A stretch of DNA of 64,000 nucleotides from Dyadobacter fermentans (GTDB lineage: Bacteria > Bacteroidota > Bacteroidia > Cytophagales > Spirosomataceae), in contig NZ_JAHXBN010000005.1 of the NCBI RefSeq assembly GCF_019924045.1, positions 124,001-188,000 of the forward strand, in the 5' to 3' direction. The first letter of the stretch is position 1, and every line of letters starts with the position of its first letter. Of the stretch, positions 4,941 through 60,902 are shown piece after piece. The notes under the pieces are model-generated. The model saw nothing but the letters and a program-made list of their open reading frames with translations, searched no databases and was not told the DNA's origin. Both the position numbers and the translations under genes were made by a program.

Positions 4941-4948
4941 ACTCAACG
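4941..4948 (+). promoter_or_regulatory. ACTCAACG leader motif before the yjbH-like gene
   Basis: The octamer ends 5 bases before the ATG at 4954. The same octamer precedes five genes of the exopolysaccharide locus at 52-61 kb in the same orientation and at similar distance. The rest of the AT-rich stretch 4683-4940 holds a possible -7 box, TATTTTTG at 4806-4813, but no convincing -33 box and no other structure that I can see. Confidence 0.6.
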
Positions 4949-4953
4949 TAAGC

Positions 4954-6879
4954 ATGATCGAAAATTACTATCTGAGGCTTCTATCGTTTCGAAGCCAGTC
5001 TACGAGGTTCTGGGAGTTTACTTCAAGGTACCTGCTGATTTCCATCCTGCTTACCTTTTTTATGAGCGCTCCCTTGCAAGCTCAAACCAATATTTCCGGC
5101 AAACCCGGGTTGATTTACATCCCTTCTGCCCGGATGACCGAAGACGGTGCGTTCCAGTTTGGTTACCATTACAACCCGATCAAGTATGGGTTTAGGTTTA
5201 ACCGCCAAAATTCGGAGGGTATTTATTTTGCCAATCTGACGATCCTGCCAAGACTTGAAATTAATATCAACCTGCTACGCATCAATAATGAATTAAAAAA
5301 AGGACAAAAGGGAATCGGCGACCGGCAACTTGATATTAAATACTTGCTGTTGAAAGAGACCGCTAAACGCCCTTCGGTGGCCGTTGTGCTTTCAGCACCT
5401 TTCGGGATCGATAACTCGTTATCTACGAATGCGGTGATGGCAAGTAAAACGCTGCGTTTGGGGGGGAACCTGTATGCCGAGCTCACTGCGGGGTTCGGAA
5501 GCCCGGTCTATATCAAACGTGACGAATCCGAAAAGAGCAATTACGACATCTTTGAGAATCTGGAAATCGTATCGAAAAAGAAATTGGGCTACCGGTACTT
5601 GTCAGGACCATTTGGTGGCTTCAACCTGCGTTTAGACAATAAGGTTGGTTTAATGGCCGAGTGGGACAGCCAGCATTTTAATACCGGGCTTTATGCCACC
5701 CTTTTTAGGCGATGGACCGTCCAGGCAGCCATTTTGAATTTCGACCAGGTAACTTTCGGAACATCGTATGCAGTGAATATGATTACGCTTCCCAAACGGC
5801 TTCGGGCCCATCAGAATGCTGAAAGACATACACCAACCAGCCTTGAAAAAAGAACTAAGCTGCTTAACAATTTTGAAAATTTAAGCATTGATACGACATC
5901 GGGAAAGATAGCTTACGAGCAGCGGATATATCGCAACCCTTATGTAGGGATGTTCGAAGTACAGACCGCATTACCCGATTCTGGTGTTACTGAACTAGTG
6001 CCGATGTTCCAGGGGGTGCCCATAGGCGCCTACCGGATGGGTAAGCGGATCAGCTATCGGGCCTTGGCAAAAGACGAAAAGGAAGCGCGCGGTTTTTTGC
6101 AAAAAAGATATAAGCTGGATTTTTGGCTTCAACCTGTCTTTGCCGCCAATTTTGGCTACCGCGAAAAGACATTGCAAAGTAATACGAGTGTGCTGCTGCA
6201 AACCCAACTTTACCTTTGGAAGGGAATGGCGTTGAATGCAGGACTTCTCTTGCCGATCACCAATGACATGGATGACCGCCCGAAGATAGTCCGTCCCGCG
6301 CCAATTTTTCTAAACCAGTTTCTGAGCTTAGGTAAGCATTTTGTCAGTGCTTCGGCTGGCTACTTCTACAATGATCAATACGGCGTAAATTTGCAATACC
6401 GTCATCATGATCTAAGCGGCCCCTGGTCGTTTGGCATCGAAAGCGGGCTTACTGGTTTATACTACTATACCAGAAAGGGCATTTATTATGAGAAAATGGA
6501 TCATCTACTGCTTGTAGCCGATGCTGCCTACCGGCTGCCGCGACCCGAGCTGACACTGAAACTTTCTGGGGGCAGGTATCTTGCCGGCGATGAGGGAGGT
6601 CGGTTTGATTTGATACGCCAGTTTACCAATGTCGAGGTAGGCTTGTATGTTATGAAAACCAACAACGGCACGACTGCCGGATTCAACTTTGCCGTCCCGA
6701 TCCCGCCAGGGAAAATTGCCCAGGGTAAGAAAGTCCGGCTGCGGACGACTGACGAATTCCGCTGGGAATACAGCTATACCCGGGGTTTCAGAATCGGTGA
6801 GCGGTACCGCACCGGTTACCAGCTCGACCAGAAACTACGACAGTATCATATAAACTATCTCAACAGGCAACGACCATAA
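4954..6879 (+). CDS. YjbH-like exopolysaccharide-associated envelope protein
   Basis: A 641-residue protein with an N-terminal signal (hydrophobic core about residues 27-40, ending SAPLQAQ). The mature start GKPGLIYIPSARMTEDG, followed by NSEGIYFANLTILPRLEI and KGIGDRQLDIKYLLLKE, is typical of the YjbH family, predicted outer-membrane beta-barrels. In Enterobacteria the yjbEFGH genes are linked to exopolysaccharide production; the exact role of YjbH is unsettled. Partner genes yjbEFG are absent here, so it is an orphan. It carries the ACTCAACG leader motif shared with the polysaccharide locus at 52-61 kb, which suggests co-regulation. No in-frame ATG lies between residue 1 and the signal core, so this start is well supported. 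Confidence 0.8.
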   Translation: MIENYYLRLLSFRSQSTRFWEFTSRYLLISILLTFFMSAPLQAQTNISGKPGLIYIPSARMTEDGAFQFGYHYNPIKYGFRFNRQNSEGIYFANLTILPRLEININLLRINNELKKGQKGIGDRQLDIKYLLLKETAKRPSVAVVLSAPFGIDNSLSTNAVMASKTLRLGGNLYAELTAGFGSPVYIKRDESEKSNYDIFENLEIVSKKKLGYRYLSGPFGGFNLRLDNKVGLMAEWDSQHFNTGLYATLFRRWTVQAAILNFDQVTFGTSYAVNMITLPKRLRAHQNAERHTPTSLEKRTKLLNNFENLSIDTTSGKIAYEQRIYRNPYVGMFEVQTALPDSGVTELVPMFQGVPIGAYRMGKRISYRALAKDEKEARGFLQKRYKLDFWLQPVFAANFGYREKTLQSNTSVLLQTQLYLWKGMALNAGLLLPITNDMDDRPKIVRPAPIFLNQFLSLGKHFVSASAGYFYNDQYGVNLQYRHHDLSGPWSFGIESGLTGLYYYTRKGIYYEKMDHLLLVADAAYRLPRPELTLKLSGGRYLAGDEGGRFDLIRQFTNVEVGLYVMKTNNGTTAGFNFAVPIPPGKIAQGKKVRLRTTDEFRWEYSYTRGFRIGERYRTGYQLDQKLRQYHINYLNRQRP

Positions 6880-24593: not shown

Positions 24594-24783
24594 GATCAAA
24601 TAAAGATTGGGGGAAGATGTAATTCTAAATCAGATGGGGTGAAGCAATTGTAGCTACATAGAGCCAAATACCCGCCCGTTGAGTTGCATGGTGCAAGTAA
24701 TAATTTTAATAACCAGAGTTTTATTATTACTTTAAAAAGACAAAATTGACTAGTACCTGGAATTCTCTATTGTATTGAAAACT

Positions 24784-48913: not shown

Positions 48914-49780
48914 TTAACTTACCGTTTCGTTTATCAGGCGATCGATGCACACGCGGAGACTGTCACGCCAATAAGGAATCGTGATGTCGAACGTCGCTTT
49001 GATTTTCGACTTGTCCATGACCGAATAGGCCGGGCGAACCGCACGTGTCACATATTCCGACGTTTTAACCGGATTGAGTTTCACGGTCGTTTCACTCAGG
49101 TCGAAAACGGCTTTGGCAAAATCATACCACGAAGTAACGCCTTCGTTGCTGTAATGGTAAATACCGTAGGCGGTGCTGTCGGATTCAGTAATGTCTAGGA
49201 TCACATTCGCCAGATCGATCGCGTAGGTAGGAGAGCCCACCTGATCGATGATCACACCCAGCTGCTCGCGTTCGCGGCCAAGGCGCAACATGGTTTTGAC
49301 AAAGTTGTTGCCGAATTCAGAATACAGCCAGCTTGTGCGGATCGTGAAATGCTCAGGCAAAATCTCGCTTATAGCTGCCTCGCCTTCCAGCTTGGTCAGT
49401 CCGTAGATATTTTCAGGCTCGGCCGGATCGGTTTCCGAGAGCAGTTGGGGAATGTCACCTTTGAAAACGAAGTCCGTTGAAATGTGAATCAGCGTTGCCT
49501 GGTGTTTTTTACATACTTCGGCAATATACGCAGCACCGTCGCGATTGACTTTCCGGCAGGTGTCCACATCATCTTCGGCTTTGTCTACGGCCGTATAGGC
49601 AGCGCAGTTAATGACGAACTGCGGCTTTTCAGCTGTAAAGAGCTTGTCGAGCAGTTCTTTGTCGAGGATGTTGGCGCTTTCTTCCGAAGGGAAGGAGATG
49701 TCAGTAATGTTACGTTCCGTTGAGTTTTTTTTAAGGCAGCTTCCCAGCTGACCTGAGGCTCCTAATACGACTATTCTCAT
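48914..49780 (-). CDS. rfbD: dTDP-4-dehydrorhamnose reductase
   Basis: A 288-residue short-chain dehydrogenase-fold enzyme, the last step of dTDP-L-rhamnose synthesis (NADPH-dependent reduction). The Rossmann motif GASGQLG (7-13), the catalytic Y-x3-K in YGLTKLEGE and the HISTDFVFKGD block are present. The start MRIVVLGASG at 49780 was chosen over a 10-residue extension. It lies about 7 kb from rfbCBA and next to the rhamnosidase genes. The leader reads ACTCAATG with the start codon inside it, a one-base variant of the ACTCAACG motif. Confidence 0.93.
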   Translation of the reverse strand: MRIVVLGASGQLGSCLKKNSTERNITDISFPSEESANILDKELLDKLFTAEKPQFVINCAAYTAVDKAEDDVDTCRKVNRDGAAYIAEVCKKHQATLIHISTDFVFKGDIPQLLSETDPAEPENIYGLTKLEGEAAISEILPEHFTIRTSWLYSEFGNNFVKTMLRLGREREQLGVIIDQVGSPTYAIDLANVILDITESDSTAYGIYHYSNEGVTSWYDFAKAVFDLSETTVKLNPVKTSEYVTRAVRPAYSVMDKSKIKATFDITIPYWRDSLRVCIDRLINETVS

Positions 49781-49839
49781 TGAGTATTTGTTGAAATGCG
49801 TTCTTTGCAAATTTAAAGAATGCCTCAGGGAAGGAGCTA

Positions 49840-50999: not shown

Positions 51000-52370
51000 C
51001 TACTGACCGCGTCCAAGAACCATTACTTGTACAGTTCTGAAAATCAGTTGAACGTCGTCAAAAACACTATAAGATTTCAGATATTGAAGATCATATTTGA
51101 GGCGCTCAACATTCTTGGCAACCGTATCGGCATAGCCAACGTTGATCTGTCCGATCGACGTAATGCCTGGTTTAACTGTCAGTAGGCGCTGGAAGTCATG
51201 CGGAGCTGCTTCCATAAGCATGTCCACGTCATATTTGTACAATGGGCGCGGACCTACCACCGACATTTCTCCTTTCAGTACATTGATGAACTGCGGCAAC
51301 TCGTCGAGGCGAGATTTGCGCAGAATACGGCCTATTGGTGTAATGCGTGGATCGTTATCACCTTGGGAATGTTGCAGACCCATTTTATCCGCATCAACAC
51401 GCATACTGCGGAACTTGTAGATGTAGAAAGGTTCCCCCCAACGTCCCGAACGTTGCTGTTTGAAGAATACAGGGCCCGGTGATGTGATTTTGATCGCTGC
51501 CCACACCAGGAAAAACACCGGCGCGCCCAGGATCATCACAATGGCGGAAAATATCAGGTCGAATGCACGTTTAACAGTCTGCTCGTTCAGGCTTGAAAAC
51601 GGTTTGGTATTAATCTCGATGATCGGATACATATCGTGGTACTCGATCGACGCCATATTGGTCATGAAGCCGCGGAAGTCTGGTACCAGGCGAATATGCG
51701 TGCGCTGGCGCTCGCCCATGCGGATCACTTCTTTCACCTGCTCGTCGTTCATTTCCGAAAGGCAGCAATACAGGTAATCCAGTTGCTTTTCTTTGACCAT
51801 CGCTTCCAGTTTTTCGATTGGATTTGTTTCCGAAGAAGGATCGATTGCCCCGGAGAAGCGGTAACCAAGCTCTTTACGTTCGGCATAAAACTCGCGGATC
51901 AGTGTCGCAAGGTCGCCCTTACCTACGATCCCGTACCGATTGTAGTTGTAACCAGCCTGGCGGTAAATTTTGAGAAAAAGCACAGCTCCTGCTCTTGAGG
52001 CCGAGGACAGCGAAATGAACATGATGTAGGTCATCAGGAACTGGTAGCGCGAATACTCCTCGCCTTGCTTGCTGAGGTAAAGAAACGCCATCATTACCGC
52101 TCCATGTACCGTCACTGCTTTCAAAAAGCTCGCGAGCTGTGTATTGAAGTGATAGGATAGCCGGGTGAAGCGGTAAGTTTTAAAAACGTAGATCGTGAAA
52201 ATCCACACCAGGTTTGCAACCAGCAACAGGTTTACGTACTGATTCTCGAAAAGCGTGGTGATCCCGTTATCAAAACGAAAGATGTAAGCAAAGAAGAACG
52301 ATAGATTTAGGAGCGCGACGTCCGTCCAGAGGTGAGCCTTAGGCAGTAGCCCAGGATAGTGATTTTTCAT
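51000..52370 (-). CDS. Undecaprenyl-phosphate sugar phosphotransferase (WcaJ family)
   Basis: A 456-residue integral membrane enzyme that starts polysaccharide synthesis by moving hexose-1-phosphate from a nucleotide sugar to undecaprenyl phosphate. Four or five N-terminal membrane segments (about 12-130) and a CoA-binding-like domain (about 140-250) precede the bacterial sugar transferase domain (about 262-450), with KRAFDLIFS, YKFRSMRVDADKMG, KSRLDELPQFINVLKGEMS and VGPRP. It probably uses UDP-glucose, but the sugar cannot be fixed from sequence. The ACTCAACG motif lies 11 bases before the ATG. Confidence 0.93.
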   Translation of the reverse strand: MKNHYPGLLPKAHLWTDVALLNLSFFFAYIFRFDNGITTLFENQYVNLLLVANLVWIFTIYVFKTYRFTRLSYHFNTQLASFLKAVTVHGAVMMAFLYLSKQGEEYSRYQFLMTYIMFISLSSASRAGAVLFLKIYRQAGYNYNRYGIVGKGDLATLIREFYAERKELGYRFSGAIDPSSETNPIEKLEAMVKEKQLDYLYCCLSEMNDEQVKEVIRMGERQRTHIRLVPDFRGFMTNMASIEYHDMYPIIEINTKPFSSLNEQTVKRAFDLIFSAIVMILGAPVFFLVWAAIKITSPGPVFFKQQRSGRWGEPFYIYKFRSMRVDADKMGLQHSQGDNDPRITPIGRILRKSRLDELPQFINVLKGEMSVVGPRPLYKYDVDMLMEAAPHDFQRLLTVKPGITSIGQINVGYADTVAKNVERLKYDLQYLKSYSVFDDVQLIFRTVQVMVLGRGQ

Positions 52371-52695
52371 AAGTTCTATAACGTTGAGTATAAATGCCTT
52401 TCAGGTACCAAATCTGTTGGGGCTTTTATAGGCTATCAATTCGGGAAATCTGTTAGTGTTCAGATTTCAGTTTTGATCTACCAACCCGTCCGGATGCATT
52501 CAATGGTATGTAACAAGTTTAAGGCATTTCTTTCTTAATTCAAAACAGAGCAATTGCCTAAATGTTGTATTTTATTGATAATTAATAGATTATGTTCTAA
52601 AAATTATACAATTATTTTGCGGATGCTGGATATTGTCCTATTTTGACATTTTAATCTACTATCGTAAAATTCGTAGAATTAATTTTTGTAGTATA
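52371..52695. other. Intergenic region upstream of the WcaJ-type gene
   Basis: 325 AT-rich bases without a gene. They hold the ACTCAACG motif (52382-52389) and should hold the promoter of the WcaJ-type gene; no clean promoter pair and no terminator for the DUF1501 gene is visible. Confidence 0.55.
52382..52389 (-). promoter_or_regulatory. ACTCAACG leader motif before the WcaJ-type gene
   Basis: The motif ends 11 bases before the ATG at 52370. The local sequence TACTCAACGTTAT is shared with the copy before the GT4 gene. Confidence 0.6.
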
Positions 52696-54225
52696 TCAGG
52701 TGGTGGTGATTTTATAGTTGCCCAGAAGATTCAACTCTCCATTACCTTCAACGTGAACCTGTTTAACGGTGATATCCTGGCCGACAGAGATGGTGTGTCC
52801 GCTGTTGATGACGACGATATCATTCGGCCCGGGCATTCGGCCGGTGGACCAAATTGCCCGGTCGGGCCACATTCCCGAGCCGAGGGACTGGACGGTGTCT
52901 GAGAAGAGGGAAGTCGTTGTAAAATTCTTATAAAGAATACTGTTTGAAGTAGTTTCGGTAGCACCGAGCCAATCAACGAGCAGATCGCGGTAGACGCGGC
53001 GAAAGTCGACTTGCATTTTGATATCCTGGTTGTTATTATATTGTGAAGGTGTAATGGGAATAAGATCTACATCCAGGTTAGGGTTAGTTCCTATCATTTG
53101 CCTTTTAATACCGGAGCCGAATATAAACATGGGTGCTGCGACGCCGTGGTCGGTACCTTTCGACGCGCTTGAATTAGCCCTGCGACCGAAATCGGAAAAT
53201 GTCATTCCAACCACCCTGTCTTGGGTACCTTGTAATTGAAGGTCGTTTTGAAAAGCCGTGATGGCCTCCGATAACTGTTTTAGCAGCGACGCATGCTCAC
53301 CTTCGATCGTGCTTGACGTGCTAACCTGTGACGCATGCGTGTCAAAGCCTCTGAGTTCAACGCAATACACCTTGGTCGATAGTCCACCGTGAATTAGTCT
53401 CGCTACAATTTTCAGCTGCTCACCAAGATTGTTTACACCCACTGCGCCGGGATAAGTAACCATGTTTTTCCCGGCGTCTCCCGCTGTTTTTATTTCTTGT
53501 GAATACCCTACTGACAACATCTCCTGCTCACGGTAGTGCTTAATCAGCTCTCCGGCGTCACAGCAGGGTAAATCGTCGCTGGATGTTCCCTCCACCGTGC
53601 CTAAAAGTTGATAGAAACTGGTTGGGTCTTGCAGGGATATATTCATTGGCTGATCTGTTCCCAACAAAGTTGTTGTGTTATTATAGCCAATTTGAATCGC
53701 CAATGGATCCTTCATTTGTGTATTGGGGTAACCCAACGGGTAGCCCGGATATTTCGAATTCAGATATCTGCCTGCCCATCCACTTTGTGAATATTTGTCC
53801 GAATCGACGGCGGTCATCCAAATATCGGTCGAGCGGTAATGCGACTGATTTGGATAGGGATAAGAGACAGAATGGACGATGCCCAACTTGCCTTCATTAA
53901 AAAGATTCTGAAGGCCCGGCATTGACGGATGGAGGCCTGTCTCGGAAAAAGAGTTTAACTTCAGGACTTTGTTTTCTGGGATCGCAATGTTGCTTCGGAG
54001 ATTATAGTATTTCGGATAGAAATCAAGCGGTATAACAGTATTGAGCCCGTCGTTGCCTCCATTTAGATATATGATAACCAAAACCCTCCCTTCGGCAGTT
54101 GGTGCGCTTGCGAGTGCAGACCGAAGCAGAGGAGACTGCTCATTGTGAGCAGTCAGCGAGAATCCAGATAGTTTTATCGGTAGCGCCATCGACGACGCTA
54201 ATGCAAGAAAATTTCTACGGTTCAT
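52696..54225 (-). CDS. DUF1501 protein with Tat signal and beta-rich tail
   Basis: A 509-residue protein. The N-terminus MNRRNFLALASSMALP is a twin-arginine signal, so it is exported folded. The DUF1501 core (about 45-420) shows VLVIIYLNGGNDGLNTVIP, VELRGFDTHASQ and TFSDFGRRANSS with GTDHG, the metal-site pattern of the alkaline phosphatase/sulfatase superfamily. The last 55 residues (PGPNDIVVINSGHTISVGQD, then ELNLLGNYKI) look like the start of a G8-type beta domain and do not resemble a T9SS sorting domain. It follows DUF1800 by 10 bases. Activity is unknown. Confidence 0.85.
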   Translation of the reverse strand: MNRRNFLALASSMALPIKLSGFSLTAHNEQSPLLRSALASAPTAEGRVLVIIYLNGGNDGLNTVIPLDFYPKYYNLRSNIAIPENKVLKLNSFSETGLHPSMPGLQNLFNEGKLGIVHSVSYPYPNQSHYRSTDIWMTAVDSDKYSQSGWAGRYLNSKYPGYPLGYPNTQMKDPLAIQIGYNNTTTLLGTDQPMNISLQDPTSFYQLLGTVEGTSSDDLPCCDAGELIKHYREQEMLSVGYSQEIKTAGDAGKNMVTYPGAVGVNNLGEQLKIVARLIHGGLSTKVYCVELRGFDTHASQVSTSSTIEGEHASLLKQLSEAITAFQNDLQLQGTQDRVVGMTFSDFGRRANSSASKGTDHGVAAPMFIFGSGIKRQMIGTNPNLDVDLIPITPSQYNNNQDIKMQVDFRRVYRDLLVDWLGATETTSNSILYKNFTTTSLFSDTVQSLGSGMWPDRAIWSTGRMPGPNDIVVINSGHTISVGQDITVKQVHVEGNGELNLLGNYKITTT

Positions 54226-54235
54226 GGTGAAGTGC

Positions 54236-55873
54236 TTAGAATAGGTGAAACTCTGCCATGTGAAAAATGTACCTTACCAAAGATCTGCATCTCCTCATGA
54301 CTACATCATACCTTTCGGGTTTTGTAGGCAATTCTCGGTAGGCATTCCATTCAGTAACCCAATTTCTTCTAGAGAGTCCTTTCATCATGATGGTATCGAT
54401 CAAAAAATTTTTTTGACCTTCAGTCAAATCGATAGCCAATAGATTTCGGGTAAATTCCTGTAAAACTGCCTCGACCGTGACAGATGGCGTACCTGCTACG
54501 TCGGAAAAATTGGGTTGTATAGACTTCACCATTCCCACGAGGTCAATCAGCACTCCTCCCGGTACGATGTCTTGAGTGGGAGAAGCGATAATAAATTGGT
54601 CCGTGACCCTGTTGCGCATACCTATCAGGGCGCCTGTGATCCAATTTTTGGATAGTCCTGTCTGGTAATAAGGTGGATATCCGAAAACTGACGGTTGGTC
54701 GAGTAAACGTAACTGCAGATTGGACATATTCTCATAAGCGAATTTCGAATATCTCCTGAATGCGGCCAGATTAGATTGTGGATCTGGCGGCTTTACGTTG
54801 TAAAATCGAAGCATACCGATAACGAGTTCCATCGGCGATTTCATGATGGCAGCCCGGTTTTGTGTCGCAAAGAAAATGTCGCTTGAAAGGAGTTTTCTTA
54901 TGACCGGGGCGATACTAAAATTGTTTTCCGGGCTTGCGAAAAATGTCGCCAGCGGTGCAATTACATTTTCCTCGATCGACGCTGTAACCTCTGGATTTAC
55001 ATACCACTTGTAAAGCTTTCGGCATATAAATCTTGGAGTGTGCGGATGGCGCAAAAGCATACTGATCAGGTCATCTATTTCTTGGCTTCCTGCCTCGAAG
55101 TCGGATCTTCCCGTTATTTGGGTGTTATTGTAGTAGCTCGAAAAAGTTTTATTGCCGGTATCGTGTCGGTCGGGCGTAAAAACAGCATCACAAAAGGTGG
55201 AGTTTTCAATCAGATAATTCCTCACTTGCCAGCCGGTGAGAACTTTTGCAGCCGCTTTGACATCATCCTCCGTGTAATTAGGCTTTCCATAAAAATCAGC
55301 TTGACCAACCACAAAGAGCTCCTGCAACTCCCGGGCGTAATTTTCGTTGGGCCTACCTTTGGTATTCTCATTGCCATTTTGAAAAATGAGCATTCCTGGG
55401 TCCTTTGTAACTTCTACGGCCAACGTCTTGAAACTGCCCAAGGCGAGGTTGCGCAAAAGCTGCAAATTTTGGTGGGTAAGACGATAGTCGAACACGACAC
55501 CTTGCGGAACAACAAAATGATTCTGCCAAAAAGCGGTAAGTTTTTCAAGGATGGAGGGTGGCTTACCTTGATCGGCCATTAGCCCCGCCCACCAATATCT
55601 GACGTAGTAACACCAGTCACTCCGCCGATCCTTATTGAAAGGAACATTCAGAAAGGGCTGTCCGGCGGTAGCCTTAGTCTCATCAAGATCTATCGGCACG
55701 GGCGGCGACGCATGGAGGCTCGAATTCGCGATAAGTTGATCAATGGCCTGCAATGGTGACAGGCCGGTAAAGGCGCTAATTTCCTGATTTGTTGGACCGA
55801 ATGTTGTGCGCCTTAATAGGTGCGAAGCACTGCGTGCATCTAATAGTGGTTGATAAGTGTCCAGGTATGGCAT
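54236..55873 (-). CDS. DUF1800 protein
   Basis: A 545-residue protein of the DUF1800 family. Landmarks are SASHLLRRTTFGPTNQEI, LEKLTAFWQNHFV, NENYARELQELFVVG, DDVKAAAKVLTGWQ and PHTPRFICRKLYKW. No signal peptide is evident. The family occurs as a fixed pair with DUF1501 in many bacteria; neither has a proven reaction. The start MPYLDT at 55873 was chosen over a 27-residue extension without family support. The pair is embedded among exopolysaccharide genes. Confidence 0.85.
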   Translation of the reverse strand: MPYLDTYQPLLDARSASHLLRRTTFGPTNQEISAFTGLSPLQAIDQLIANSSLHASPPVPIDLDETKATAGQPFLNVPFNKDRRSDWCYYVRYWWAGLMADQGKPPSILEKLTAFWQNHFVVPQGVVFDYRLTHQNLQLLRNLALGSFKTLAVEVTKDPGMLIFQNGNENTKGRPNENYARELQELFVVGQADFYGKPNYTEDDVKAAAKVLTGWQVRNYLIENSTFCDAVFTPDRHDTGNKTFSSYYNNTQITGRSDFEAGSQEIDDLISMLLRHPHTPRFICRKLYKWYVNPEVTASIEENVIAPLATFFASPENNFSIAPVIRKLLSSDIFFATQNRAAIMKSPMELVIGMLRFYNVKPPDPQSNLAAFRRYSKFAYENMSNLQLRLLDQPSVFGYPPYYQTGLSKNWITGALIGMRNRVTDQFIIASPTQDIVPGGVLIDLVGMVKSIQPNFSDVAGTPSVTVEAVLQEFTRNLLAIDLTEGQKNFLIDTIMMKGLSRRNWVTEWNAYRELPTKPERYDVVMRRCRSLVRYIFHMAEFHLF

Positions 55874-56028
55874 GTTCTTTCCCCTCGTCTCGTTATAATG
55901 ATGCGTGGCGTTTTTAAGGACTAGCATCATTATAACAAAGGTACTACATGTCAACTATTTTAGAAAATAGTTTGAGAAATATTGTAGAATTTATTCTGCA
56001 ATTGTATCGCCGAACGGGAGAATGGCCG

Positions 56029-56907
56029 TTAACTGACTACTCTGGGATGAGGTAGTAATTTCTGAAGATATCTGCCATAACCGCTTTTAACGAGCGGTTG
56101 AGCGATATCGTTTAATTCTTCTTCATTTATAAAACCCATACGATATGCCACTTCTTCAACGCAGCCTATTTTAAGTCCCTGGCGTTCCTCAATAACTTGC
56201 ACAAACTGGCCTGCCTGCATCAGGGATTCGAAAGTGCCGGTGTCGAGCCAGGCAGTTCCTCGGTCCAGTACACCAACTTTTAGTCTGCCAGATTCAAGAT
56301 AAACCTTATTTACATCGGTAATCTCGTATTCGCCTCTGGGCGACGGTGCAATTGATTTTGCGATATCGACTACGTCGTTGTCGTAGAAGTAAAGTCCCGG
56401 TACTGCATAGTTCGATTTAGGTTCCAGTGGCTTTTCTTCAATGGAAAGTGCATTGAACGACTCGTCAAACTCTACTACTCCATAGCGTTCGGGATCATGT
56501 ACCTGATACGCGAAAATGACACCGCCCTGAGGATCGGCATTGGCCTGAAGAAGCTTTGACAGGCCTGAACCATAAAAAATATTATCTCCTAATATCAACG
56601 CAACTTTGTCAGTCCCAATAAATTCCTCACCGATCACGAAGGCCTGGGCTAAGCCGTCCGGGCTTGGTTGGACCGCATAGTTAAACTTACAGCCGATCCT
56701 AGTTCCATCACCCAGCAATTTTTGGAAATGAGGCATGTCGTGCGGAGTTGAGATGACTAATATCTCCCTAATACCGGCGAGCATCAAAATAGACAGCGGG
56801 TAGTAAATCATCGGCTTGTCATAGACAGGCATAAGCTGCTTACTGACAGCAAGGGTGAGTGGATGTAAACGCGTTCCTGATCCACCCGCAAGAATAATTC
56901 CTTTCAT
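56029..56907 (-). CDS. rfbA: Glucose-1-phosphate thymidylyltransferase
   Basis: A 292-residue nucleotidyltransferase. [18 protein letters not shown] with the K in [16 protein letters not shown], the LGDNIFYG metal site and [19 protein letters not shown] are diagnostic of RfbA/RmlA. It makes dTDP-glucose from dTTP and glucose 1-phosphate, the first step toward dTDP-L-rhamnose. It sits 51 bases after rfbB, with an ACTCAACG motif in that gap. Confidence 0.96.
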
Positions 56908-56919
56908 AATTTAACGATT

Positions 56920-56927
56920 CGTTGAGT
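56920..56927 (-). promoter_or_regulatory. ACTCAACG leader motif before rfbA
   Basis: The motif ends 12 bases before the rfbA ATG, inside the 51-base gap after rfbB. Confidence 0.6.
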
Positions 56928-56958
56928 TATCAAAATATGTGCAACTGTCGCGCTGAGA

Positions 56959-58023
56959 TTAGCGGCGATCATACATTTCCTCGTAATAATGTTTGTAAGC
57001 TCCGGACGTGACATTGTTCAACCACTCGGTGTTGCTCAGGTACCACTCGACGGTCTTCGTAAGGCCCTCACTGAATTGCAGCGAAGGAACCCACCCTAGC
57101 TCTTTTTTGAGTTTTGTAGCGTCAATTGCATAGCGCAAGTCGTGTCCGGCCCTGTCTGTAACATACTGAATCAGTCCTTCGGAGGTGTTTTCTTCTCGCC
57201 CCAGTTTTTCGTCCATGATCTTGCAGAGCAGCTTGACCAGGTCGATATTTTTCCATTCGTTGTGGCCACCAATGTTGTAGGTTTCACCATTTTTGCCTTT
57301 ATGGAATATCACATCGATCGCTCTTGCATGATCTTCCACAAAGAGCCAGTCGCGGATGTTTTCTCCCTTTCCATATACCGGCAGTGGTTTGTCATTGAGG
57401 ACATTGTGAATCATTAACGGAATCAGCTTTTCCGGGAAGTGATTGGGCCCATAGTTATTTGAGCAATTAGAAATGACAACCGGCATTCCATAAGTGTTAT
57501 GATAAGCCCTTACAAAGTGATCGGAAGAGGCTTTTGAAGCGCTGTATGGCGAGCGTGGATCGTATTTTGTTGTTTCCAGGAACAACTCCTCCGGATTGTG
57601 CAGCTCACCGTAAACTTCGTCGGTCGATATATGATAGAACAAGTGTTTGTCTATGTCATTCCTCCAGGCTCTTCTTGCTGCGTTAAGTAGATTCACCGTT
57701 CCAACTACGTTGGTCATTACAAATGCCATCGGATCAGAAATCGATCGGTCCACGTGGGATTCTGCGGCAAGATGGATTACGCCCTTGAAATCATGCTCAA
57801 TGAAAAGATCTTCCACAAACCCTGAATCTGTAATGTCTCCTTTTACAAAAGTGTAATTTGGAAACGCTTCCAGATCGCTGAGGTTTTCAAGATTACCAGC
57901 GTAAGTCAATGCATCAAGGTTGAAGACCTGGTAGTCGGGATAAGTTGTTACAAACCGTCTAACTACGTGCGATCCTATAAAACCGGCCCCGCCGGTAATC
58001 AATATTTTGTTTGAATTGCTCAT
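56959..58023 (-). CDS. rfbB: dTDP-glucose 4,6-dehydratase
   Basis: A 354-residue SDR-family enzyme with the NAD site GGAGFIGSHVVRRF (residues 8-21), the catalytic T-D-E in HISTDEVYGEL and Y-x3-K in SPYSASKASSDHFV. It converts dTDP-glucose to dTDP-4-keto-6-deoxyglucose. It starts 18 bases after rfbC and has no ACTCAACG motif of its own. Confidence 0.96.
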   Translation of the reverse strand: MSNSNKILITGGAGFIGSHVVRRFVTTYPDYQVFNLDALTYAGNLENLSDLEAFPNYTFVKGDITDSGFVEDLFIEHDFKGVIHLAAESHVDRSISDPMAFVMTNVVGTVNLLNAARRAWRNDIDKHLFYHISTDEVYGELHNPEELFLETTKYDPRSPYSASKASSDHFVRAYHNTYGMPVVISNCSNNYGPNHFPEKLIPLMIHNVLNDKPLPVYGKGENIRDWLFVEDHARAIDVIFHKGKNGETYNIGGHNEWKNIDLVKLLCKIMDEKLGREENTSEGLIQYVTDRAGHDLRYAIDATKLKKELGWVPSLQFSEGLTKTVEWYLSNTEWLNNVTSGAYKHYYEEMYDRR

Positions 58024-58041
58024 GTCTTAGTTTTATGTTCT

Positions 58042-58590
58042 TCAGGTATTGGGAATTGCTTTGAAGATTTCCTCGAAGGTTGGTAATATCTGATCCTTTT
58101 CGGAGACAATAGGATTTTCGACACCCCAGGAAATATTGAAATAGGGGTCGTTCCAGCGTAGCCCGCCTTCCGATGTCTTGTTATACATGTTTGTGCACTT
58201 ATATTGAAACACGCTGTCTTCAAGCGCTGCGAAACCATGGGCAAAGCCCTCCGGGATATACACCATTCTTCTATTTTCTGCACTGAGTTCGAACAATTCG
58301 AATTTTCCGAACGCAGGCGATTCCGAACGAAGATCGACAGCGACGTCGAGCACCCTGCCGGAAATCACGCGTACCAGTTTGCCCTGTGCGTGGGGCGCAC
58401 GTTGGAAATGAAGGCCGCGAATGACTCCTTTCCTGGAGAAGGATTGGTTGTCTTGTACAAACGTTTCGGTAAAGCCCTGCGCTTTCCAGGCTTCGTCATT
58501 GAACGACTCGAAGAAATGCCCCCGATCGTCGCTGAATACGGCCGGCGTAATTATCCAGACGTCAGGAAGGGATGTTTGACTGAATTTCAT
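58042..58590 (-). CDS. rfbC: dTDP-4-dehydrorhamnose 3,5-epimerase
   Basis: A 182-residue cupin-fold epimerase. GHFFESFNDEAWKAQGF, the QDNQSFSRKGVIRGLHFQ block with the catalytic His and YIPEGFAHGFAAL are diagnostic. It makes dTDP-4-keto-L-rhamnose for RfbD. The start MKFSQT at 58590 overlaps the upstream glycosyltransferase by 29 bases; the ACTCAACG motif 4 bases before it therefore lies inside that gene's coding sequence. A 15-residue upstream extension was rejected. Confidence 0.95.
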   Translation of the reverse strand: MKFSQTSLPDVWIITPAVFSDDRGHFFESFNDEAWKAQGFTETFVQDNQSFSRKGVIRGLHFQRAPHAQGKLVRVISGRVLDVAVDLRSESPAFGKFELFELSAENRRMVYIPEGFAHGFAALEDSVFQYKCTNMYNKTSEGGLRWNDPYFNISWGVENPIVSEKDQILPTFEEIFKAIPNT

Positions 58591-59686
58591 GTTGCGTTGA
58601 GTAAATGGTTCGAAAATGGTTTTCGTATTGTTCAATTATGTTATTCCACTCGTATATATGCTTGATTTTGTGTAGGTTGTTTGCTACAAAGGAGCTGTAT
58701 TTCTCCTTTTTGACAGTTTCGATCGTCTGTTTAACCTCGTTGGCATTCTGGAAATAGAGTGCGTCTTTCTCAAGGATCGTTGCGTTAAACTCGTTCTGGT
58801 TGGCACAGATAAGCGCTTGCGATGCCATAGCTTCCAGCAATGATGGATTTGTACCTCCTACCGAATGCCCATGGAAGTAGACATTAGAATAGTACCGCAA
58901 GTTATTCAATGCATTAATATCGTAAATGCCCCCGATAAACCGGATTTGCTCAAAGGCAGCGTATTTGCTTTTCAGGTATTCTCCATACTTCGTCGCATGC
59001 TTACCTACAACTAGAAAAGGTGCTCTCCCATTGGATTTTGAAATCCCTTCGAGAATAGTGTCGACGTTATTTTCAGGCTCCAGTCGTGCAATGAGCATAT
59101 TGTAACCGTACGCTTCTAACCCATATTGATTCAGAACGTTTGTGCTGGGATCCTCAAACGGAAAGGCACCGTATGGAATATACGTAGAGGGTATTTTATA
59201 TTTTTTTGCCAAATAGTCCTGAATTCCCAGTGAGTCGGCAATCCAGTGATCGCTATATACCGTTCCCAGGTATTCTGCCCACTTGAGGAAGTTCCTTACT
59301 GGCTTCGAATATTTGGTGCGCTTCCATTCTAAACCATCCATGTTGGTGGTGATGATACAGTTCTTGCGCGGAAGCAACCATCCCCACACCGTGCTACTGG
59401 TATAACCGAGCTGTAAAATGATATCATACGTTTGCTTGCGCGCATGTAGGATGCAGTTAAGATCATACACGAACTGTCCTGCAGTTCCCCATTTATCTTC
59501 GGGATCGTTACAGTGCACCAGTTTTACCCCGTTCCATTCCGATTGCTGGTAGGGGTGAGAATGTGAGTTATAAACGGTGATATCGTGTCCTCGTTCCACC
59601 AGCCCCTTGGCTAGGTATTCCGCAAATTGCTCGAACCCGCCATAGTGATTGGGAATTCCGCGTGTGCCTATGATAGCTATTTTCAT
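58562..59686 (-). CDS. DUF1972-type glycosyltransferase
   Basis: A 374-residue GT-B transferase. The N-terminal DUF1972 domain starts MKIAIIGTRGIPNHYGGFEQF, and the C-terminal GT4-like half has LIARLEPENNVDTILEGI, IRFIGGIYD and HGHSVGGTNPSLLEAMASQ. DUF1972 proteins are often rhamnosyl- or related transferases; with a dTDP-rhamnose pathway next door, rhamnose is a fair guess for the donor (inference). It is cytoplasmic or peripheral to the inner membrane and adds a sugar to the lipid-linked repeat unit. Confidence 0.9.
   Translation of the reverse strand: MKIAIIGTRGIPNHYGGFEQFAEYLAKGLVERGHDITVYNSHSHPYQQSEWNGVKLVHCNDPEDKWGTAGQFVYDLNCILHARKQTYDIILQLGYTSSTVWGWLLPRKNCIITTNMDGLEWKRTKYSKPVRNFLKWAEYLGTVYSDHWIADSLGIQDYLAKKYKIPSTYIPYGAFPFEDPSTNVLNQYGLEAYGYNMLIARLEPENNVDTILEGISKSNGRAPFLVVGKHATKYGEYLKSKYAAFEQIRFIGGIYDINALNNLRYYSNVYFHGHSVGGTNPSLLEAMASQALICANQNEFNATILEKDALYFQNANEVKQTIETVKKEKYSSFVANNLHKIKHIYEWNNIIEQYENHFRTIYSTQHEIQSNIPS
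58595..58602 (-). promoter_or_regulatory. ACTCAACG leader motif before rfbC
   Basis: The motif ends 4 bases before the rfbC ATG. It is inside the last codons of the DUF1972 glycosyltransferase gene, where it encodes part of YSTQ. Confidence 0.6.
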
Positions 59687-59693
59687 GAAATAT

Positions 59694-59701
59694 CGTTGAG
59701 T
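59694..59701 (-). promoter_or_regulatory. ACTCAACG leader motif before the DUF1972 gene
   Basis: The motif ends 7 bases before the ATG at 59686, in the 18-base gap after the GT4 gene. Confidence 0.6.
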
Positions 59702-59704
59702 TTT

Positions 59705-60892
59705 CTAGCCTTCAATAACTTTTTTGTAAAAATCTGTTGTCAGTGCACCGATGTTCGCCCAGTCGTAATCCTCCCTGATGAGGCGATTGGACATTTTTGT
59801 CACAGTTGATAACCGATCAGGATTATCAGCTATTTCCATGATCTTTCCGGCTAAATCTTCAGCGTTCTCGCTTTCAAACAGGAATCCGGTTTCATTATCC
59901 CTGATAATCTCCATAAAAGGTTTGAGATCAGAGCACAGGACAGGCTTCCCGTAGCTGAGGCTCAGTAGAAGCACGCCACTTTGATAAATCTCCCGGTAGG
60001 GTAAAACAACCAGGTCGGCGTTGTCATAGAAACCGGCAACTTCCTCGTCGGGAATGTACCTGAAATCTGTTCTGACAACATTCGTGATTCCGAGACTTGT
60101 GATCAGGTTTTTGTAATAATCCAGATCGCTTTTCCAAGCCTTGCCTGCTATGGTCAGATGTATTTTCCTACCTCTCGTACCTACTTTCGCGATTGCCTCC
60201 AGGAGAATATCCAATCCCTTTACTTGTTTTATCTGACCGAAGAAGAGAATGCGTAGTTCCGGGCCGACACTTTTTTTCGAAGAGGATGTGGATATAAACG
60301 GAAGATAGTTGCCATGCGGAATAACGGCGACCGGGTTATTGGTAAGTCTCTTTTCAGTTAGAAAGTTAAGAGAAGACTGGTTGTGCACGACAACTCCATC
60401 CATCAATTTGTAGCAAGCCAATTCAATATAGTGGTTAGCTTGCTTCGTAAAAGAGTTTACATCGTGAATGGTACCAATGCATTTGAAACCTAACAGCTTA
60501 CCTATGGATAAGACTATCAGATCGATGCCGCGAAAGGTAAAGAAATGGAGATGAGCGATACGGGCACCTTTACTTTTAGCGTCCCGAAAGGCAACAGCAT
60601 GACCTTTGATATATTCCGATGCCTTAGATAAGACGTTTCGGGACCAAAGACGGGTAAAGCTGAAAAAAGTTTCTACATTCTCGAAATTCCGTTTCTTGGT
60701 TACGTCACAGGTGTAATAAAGTGTTTTTACACCATGACTACCTAGCCCATAAGCTAATCCGTAATCGTAGTAATCCATTCCTCCATGCCCTCCGACCGGC
60801 TCGATGAGCGCAACTGGTGCACGGCTAAATGATTGTTCCCGATATTGAGATTTTGTTGCCGATTGCTCTCGGTAGATCACACTTTCTTTCAT
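59705..60892 (-). CDS. Glycosyltransferase family 4 protein
   Basis: A 395-residue GT-B transferase. The N-terminal half has a glycine-rich acceptor loop (EPVGGHGGMDYYDYGLAYGL, residues 32-51); the C-terminal half has LRILFFGQIKQVKGLDILLEA, LTIAGKAW and the E-x7-E signature region VVLPYREIYQSGVLLLSLSYGKPV. It adds one sugar of the repeat unit at the inner face of the membrane; donor and acceptor are unknown. The first 25 residues (KESVIYREQSATKSQYREQS) are hydrophilic and could be an extension. Confidence 0.9.
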   Translation of the reverse strand: MKESVIYREQSATKSQYREQSFSRAPVALIEPVGGHGGMDYYDYGLAYGLGSHGVKTLYYTCDVTKKRNFENVETFFSFTRLWSRNVLSKASEYIKGHAVAFRDAKSKGARIAHLHFFTFRGIDLIVLSIGKLLGFKCIGTIHDVNSFTKQANHYIELACYKLMDGVVVHNQSSLNFLTEKRLTNNPVAVIPHGNYLPFISTSSSKKSVGPELRILFFGQIKQVKGLDILLEAIAKVGTRGRKIHLTIAGKAWKSDLDYYKNLITSLGITNVVRTDFRYIPDEEVAGFYDNADLVVLPYREIYQSGVLLLSLSYGKPVLCSDLKPFMEIIRDNETGFLFESENAEDLAGKIMEIADNPDRLSTVTKMSNRLIREDYDWANIGALTTDFYKKVIEG

Positions 60893-60894
60893 AA

Positions 60895-60902
60895 CGTTGA
60901 GT
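60895..60902 (-). promoter_or_regulatory. ACTCAACG leader motif before the GT4 gene
   Basis: The motif ends 2 bases before the ATG at 60892, in the 63-base gap after the pyruvyl transferase gene. Confidence 0.6.

Follow-up and report, generated by a model that had tools for sequence, protein, structure and literature searches.

A leader octamer of Dyadobacter exopolysaccharide genes as the probable pairing site of a putative multicopy small RNA family

The 64,000-nt stretch of Dyadobacter fermentans analyzed here (the window; positions 124,001 to 188,000 of contig NZ_JAHXBN010000005.1, or G000:C138:124001-188000, where G numbers denote genomes, L numbers label fetched loci and G000 is the 8.0 Mb genome holding the window) contains a polysaccharide gene cluster in which the octamer ACTCAACG recurs directly upstream of start codons. 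Gene starts were taken as the first ATG of long open reading frames (ORFs), because a simple codon-based caller overlooked AT-rich polysaccharide genes and shifted starts. The octamer occurs exactly eight times in the window, one copy more than the seven counted in the initial annotation; dinucleotide shuffles contain 1.5 copies on average and 5 at most, and none of 100 reaches eight. Six of the eight copies lie 2–12 nt upstream of ATGs of long ORFs, each at the distance given in that annotation.

One of these sites, on the plus strand at 4941..4948, precedes by 5 nt the gene for a YjbH-like exopolysaccharide protein (4954..6879, +; this and the following assignments by Pfam). The other five are on the minus strand, as are their genes. 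The site at 52382..52389 lies 11 nt before the gene for a WcaJ-type sugar transferase with Bac_transf and CoA_binding_3 domains (51000..52370), and the leader here reads TACTCAACGTTA, complementary over 12 nt to the putative small RNA described below. Further sites are found 12 nt before the rfbA-like nucleotidyltransferase gene (56029..56907; site 56920..56927), 4 nt before the gene for an rfbC-like dTDP-sugar epimerase (58042..58590; site 58595..58602), 7 nt before the DUF1972/GT4 transferase gene (DUF1972 glycosyltransferase, 58562..59686; site 59694..59701) and, in the form TACTCAACGTTATG, 2 nt before the gene for a group 1 glycosyltransferase (GT4 gene, 59705..60892; site 60895..60902). 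The rfbC site is embedded in the last part of the coding sequence of the transferase gene upstream, as the initial annotation had noted.

The remaining two window copies are found at 24677, outside credible gene ORFs of at least 100 aa, and at 49718..49725 (minus strand), within rmlD about 55 nt past its start. The latter copy is shared by three close relatives and may be a chance feature of the coding sequence. At the rmlD start itself, 49778..49785 on the minus strand, the sequence is ACTCAATG, in which the ATG is the start codon and which could pair over 8 of 8 positions with the small RNA core given one G-U wobble. Just past the window, two more leader copies are found, one before a Wzc-like gene at a distance of 2 nt (C138:191912) and one before a Wzi-like gene at 6 nt (C138:195224). 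Over the 24 kb of the polysaccharide region, ACTCAACG is the most frequent octamer on the coding strand: of its 10 copies, 7 stand at gene starts and 3 fall within coding sequence. In the genome as a whole, 84 of 119 placeable copies were assigned by script to coding sequence, the rfbC site being counted among them. If up to one mismatch is allowed, 32 matches are found where 44 are expected; with no excess, one-mismatch copies were rejected as additional sites.

We then compared orthologous leaders. By the WcaJ-type protein, the nearest named relatives belong to Dyadobacter (97–95% identity for the best four), which NCBI places in Spirosomataceae, Cytophagales. When the best 30 wcaJ loci from the genus are compared, our own included, 23 keep the exact octamer before the wcaJ ATG amid diverged flanks. 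Ortholog counts were made over 42 named wcaJ loci, 41 from Dyadobacter and one from Persicitalea: the exact octamer is present in 33 of these wcaJ leaders, and in 37 if G-U wobble pairing is allowed. For rfbC the corresponding number is 10 of 12. At the end of the upstream gene this site is translated as the codons TAC TCA ACG, of which TCA ACG is identical in all 10 loci that have the site, despite the six codons available for serine and the four for threonine. Two control genes gave no exact copy (rfbB, 0/12; DUF1501, 0/9) and one wobble match each. At rmlD, none of 31 orthologs has an exact copy and 9 match with wobble, 8 of them as ACTCAATG, a weak signal given that the ATG is the start codon. 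The GT4 gene, wzx and the pyruvyl transferase gene have no ortholog in the 42 wcaJ loci.

Of the 625 ORFs of these loci, 54 carry ACTCAACG in the 33 nt directly upstream of the first ATG, at gaps of 0–19 nt. In two control windows at the same genes the counts were 3 and 5 among 616; no leader holds the reverse complement, and one holds the reversed octamer. With wcaJ excluded, 20 of 589 leaders carry the octamer within 25 nt; its 1120 permutations occur in 0.17 leaders on average, and the runner-up in 7. Tandem octamer pairs spaced 27–57 nt apart were seen at L159, L164, L269 and L370.

The initial annotation had proposed an antisense RNA with the seed CGUUGAGU, and this idea has found strong support in a family of RNA-like genes that combine such a core with an intrinsic terminator. 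The discovery copy came from an ATG-proximal octamer at C17:230186 that has no downstream gene: its opposite strand reads CGTTGAGT, followed by an intrinsic terminator, and lies between a divergent response-regulator gene (receiver and LuxR-type domains) and an AraC-type gene. A DNA search with this copy matched 17 places, spread over 15 of the 48 genus genomes, and CGTTGAGT is present at every one of these places. A covariance model, R1, was built from 18 copies cut on AACGTTGAGT. Its alignment shows a 15-pair consensus hairpin, in which 6 pairs have changes on both sides, followed by a T-run, with the core outside the hairpin. Measured from immediately upstream of the core to the T-run, the predicted genes span about 60 nt; they comprise a near-invariant core CGUUGAGUA, usually AACGUUGAGUA, and then the terminator hairpin. 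In 20 of 25 inspected model-found copies the core CGTTGAGT is exact; flanks and hairpins vary between subfamilies.

At E ≤ 0.001, R1 finds 1–8 copies per genome in 48 of 48 same-genus genomes and, in an order sample of 241 genomes, at least one copy in 17 of 22 other genomes of the family. Marginal hits with E values of 1e-4 to 1e-3 in 10 of 212 order genomes outside the family are probably due to chance; of six that were examined, L221 has a changed core and L220 and L222-L225 failed the core filter. As judged from sequence, the RNA-like family is one of Dyadobacter and of some other genera of its family. Rfam gave nine weak hits in ten RNA loci, all far under the gathering scores, and none in L007. 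The motif TAnnTTTG, the Bacteroidota -7 box, occurs 2–45 nt upstream of 17 of 64 RNA copies (shuffle mean 2.9, maximum 8).

In G000, R1 matches six RNA copies (C17:230142, C35:288849, C138:28331, C138:22641, C107:136706 and, with a changed core, C9:962802). All six are intergenic with respect to the listed ORFs, at separate places and outside the window; within it no RNA copy was found, and the two weak R1 matches there are antisense readings of target sites. A response-regulator gene lies within about 2 kb of four of the six copies, a proximity that tentatively suggests that several inputs may converge on one seed. Two copies (G000:C138:22641-28390; L039, L038) point toward each other across about 5.6 kb that includes a LuxR-type response regulator, and the same two subfamilies converge at 5–8 kb in G002, G033 and G036. 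As judged by eye, one subfamily occurs as tandem copies beside an apparent groEL 3′ end (L122 and L124, in G026 and G025), and the copies at L123 are also tandem. In L110-L117, an inverted repeat GTAGAAATGTATCTAC, identical in eight aligned copies, is located upstream of the -7 box and of the seed; it is a possible operator.

The match between leaders and RNAs extends beyond the octamer. Over the 54 leader sites, T precedes the octamer in 35, and T, T and A follow it in 38, 34 and 36, respectively. The resulting leader consensus TACTCAACGTTA is the exact complement of the RNA-like gene consensus TAACGTTGAGTA. With RNA genes counted, this 12-mer occurs 9 times in G000 compared with 0 for the reversed sequence, and 119 versus 38 times in 61 family genomes, of which 21 have none. 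In other genera it is found 2 nt upstream of a GDP-mannose dehydratase gene (L368) and 24 nt upstream of a sugar-nucleotide epimerase-type gene (L266), while the remaining copies there, apart from three considered below, lie in RNA genes or elsewhere. Duplexes predicted at −13 kcal/mol or below involve 80 of 625 leaders; with 40 shuffled RNAs the number of such leaders was 5.7 on average and 14 at most.

A further class of octamer copies precedes no gene. In 5 of 30 loci (L088, L089, L093, L097 and L106), ACTCAACG followed by a terminator-like hairpin on the same strand is found behind wcaJ, and five such elements with no gene after them were recognized by eye in G000 (C138:208461, C17:58640, C27:23667, C65:141068 and C77:26878), one of them behind an operon with a response regulator. 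These elements may be sponges or 3′-end targets of the putative RNAs.

Taken together, these features offer an attractive explanation for the octamer. We consider it likely that ACTCAACG, in its extended form TACTCAACGTTA, is the pairing site of a trans-acting small RNA family that probably represses polysaccharide genes. The RNA would pair with 8–13 nt directly upstream of the start codons of single cistrons in the exopolysaccharide cluster. Its conserved core targets would be wcaJ and rfbC, and rfbA, glycosyltransferase genes, wzc, wzi and perhaps rmlD would be lineage-specific ones. Pairing would mask the ribosome footprint, so that translation would most likely be repressed, and neighboring two-component systems would control some of the RNA copies. 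Transcription of the RNAs, their pairing and a repressive effect are what we infer from sequence. An action at the RNA rather than the DNA level is favored because the rfbC site falls within coding sequence inside a gene cluster, with its codons kept. Only tentatively would we extend this scheme to a complete exopolysaccharide RNA network, in which sibling RNAs, several near two-component genes, would act through one seed cistron by cistron and would be titrated by the octamer-terminator sponges.

Several observations weigh against the pairing model. A genome-wide count, the check proposed in the initial annotation, showed no enrichment before starts: G000 has 143 copies of ACTCAACG and 183 of the reversed octamer, and an ATG follows within 14 nt in 46 and 43 cases, respectively. 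The excess is therefore confined to polysaccharide genes; a general genome-wide leader motif was rejected on these counts, which also speak against a broad regulon. Conservation at orthologous polysaccharide genes, the second point that the initial annotation had named for checking, is strong for wcaJ and rfbC and poor elsewhere, with 2 of 13 rfbA orthologs exact (4 of 13 with wobble) and 1 of 12 for the DUF1972 transferase. At yjbH it failed, with no octamer in 12 other genomes with a long match or in 17 loci with a two-piece match, so that the site there may be chance or recent and yjbH is unsupported as a conserved target. The YjbH-like protein aligns as two adjacent pieces in many same-genus genomes (L400-L416). 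Even for wcaJ, pairing in the nine non-exact leaders is retained via G-U wobble in four and lost in five, and the 42 loci represent fewer, related genomes (five contribute two each), so that the ortholog counts are not independent. Within the cluster, rfbB, wzx and the pyruvyl transferase gene have no site; for the latter two this agrees with the earlier remark that tightly joined genes lack the motif.

On the RNA side, R1 hits are biased toward the core because the training sequences were cut on AACGTTGAGT, and the core varies so little that compensatory changes cannot be sought in it. The unpaired seed that the initial annotation had suggested looking for is seen in the consensus and in the predicted folds of three of the six G000 copies, each folded alone; in the other three the core is partly held in a short stem (6 pairs in C138:28331). 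An exact TAnnTTTG is absent from 47 of the 64 RNA copies. The 12-mer also precedes genes without an evident polysaccharide role in other genera (L248, L274 and L379), and octamer copies before terminators rather than genes are unexplained by control of translation alone.

That last class of sites would suit an RNA-binding protein that reads ACUCAACG both in leaders of polysaccharide mRNAs and at their 3′ ends; the RNA-like loci would then be secondary or unrelated. The site is indeed short and strand-specific, and G000 encodes one RRM_1 protein; such a protein does not, however, explain why all 48 genus genomes carry a multicopy, terminator-tailed family whose conserved core is the exact complement of the site and its flanks, and we consider it improbable. 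Less probable still is a DNA-binding transcription factor or promoter element. The motif does keep its place in front of wcaJ, possibly the first gene of an operon, but a promoter would hardly fit with the ATG 0–19 nt away, the rfbC copy is within coding sequence, the reverse orientation precedes none of the 625 ORFs, and TAnnTTTG upstream of the wcaJ motif is at chance level (4/30; shuffle mean 1.9, maximum 7). The initial annotation had likewise disfavored a DNA-binding factor, a judgment that the tight spacing, the rfbC copy and the lack of reverse copies bear out. That the octamer is merely common locally would accord with its ordinary genome-wide counts and the unconserved yjbH site, but is contradicted for wcaJ and rfbC by genus-wide conservation amid diverged flanks and by the control windows; as a general account chance is exceedingly unlikely, though single sites such as yjbH may be due to it.

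An alternative that differs in sign only is that the RNAs pair as proposed and activate or stabilize their mRNAs. The direction of the effect is not readable from sequence, and the copies in 3′ ends behind wcaJ could protect RNA. On the other hand, sites 0–19 nt before the ATG fall in the ribosome footprint, and the FopS small RNAs of Bacteroides thetaiotaomicron, the closest studied case, repress from the start-codon region (PMC11697453). We prefer repression because FopS, with a similar layout, represses susC-like genes from that region; by this analogy repression is the somewhat likelier sign, and activation or stabilization is a minor though not negligible prospect.

To our knowledge, small-RNA control in Bacteroidota outside Bacteroides is barely charted. 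Among the literature matches listed, from a search that reached neither preprints nor most subscription papers nor the spelling Spirosomataceae, none concerned RNAs of this sort in Dyadobacter, Spirosomaceae or Cytophagales. The putative family, its seed and its polysaccharide-synthesis targets were thus met neither in Rfam nor in that literature; its kind, the multicopy trans-acting RNA, is already known. With a seed near-unchanged across the genus and beyond and sites before named polysaccharide genes, post-transcriptional control of exopolysaccharide becomes directly testable, and a leader octamer can point to an RNA regulon from sequence alone.

Among known systems, the octamer resembles the JUMPStart/ops element of enterobacteria, which is likewise short and conserved and lies in front of polysaccharide gene clusters. 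That element, of the type GGCGGTAG, is read by RfaH and acts in transcription elongation; it occurs once per operon, whereas ACTCAACG stands at several cistrons of one cluster. The motif of that element in leaders, GGCGGTAGNNTG, was rejected as a candidate, with 2 one-mismatch hits in the window compared with 2.9 expected. Likened by description only, the sibling small RNAs of Neisseria and the duplicated csrB of Vibrio also come in several copies with a shared function and can join several inputs; they belong to other phyla and have other targets. By search, no Hfq was found in G000, which has the single RRM_1 protein mentioned above; RbpB, to which we now turn, is an RRM protein.

The closest likeness is to FopS. 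These RNAs are multicopy paralogs (12–15 copies), described as conserved within Bacteroidaceae and bound by RbpB, with a single-stranded 5′ stretch containing a shared seed and an intrinsic terminator, and they repress susC-like glycan-uptake transporters near start codons, typically in the first gene of polycistrons (PMC11697453). The two families are compared by description only. In that description, the putative Dyadobacter RNAs share with FopS the multicopy organization, the shared-seed 5′ stretch with a terminator, and start-codon-proximal sites in glycan-related genes. In contrast to FopS, they number 1–8 copies and match genes of polysaccharide synthesis, at several cistrons of one cluster.

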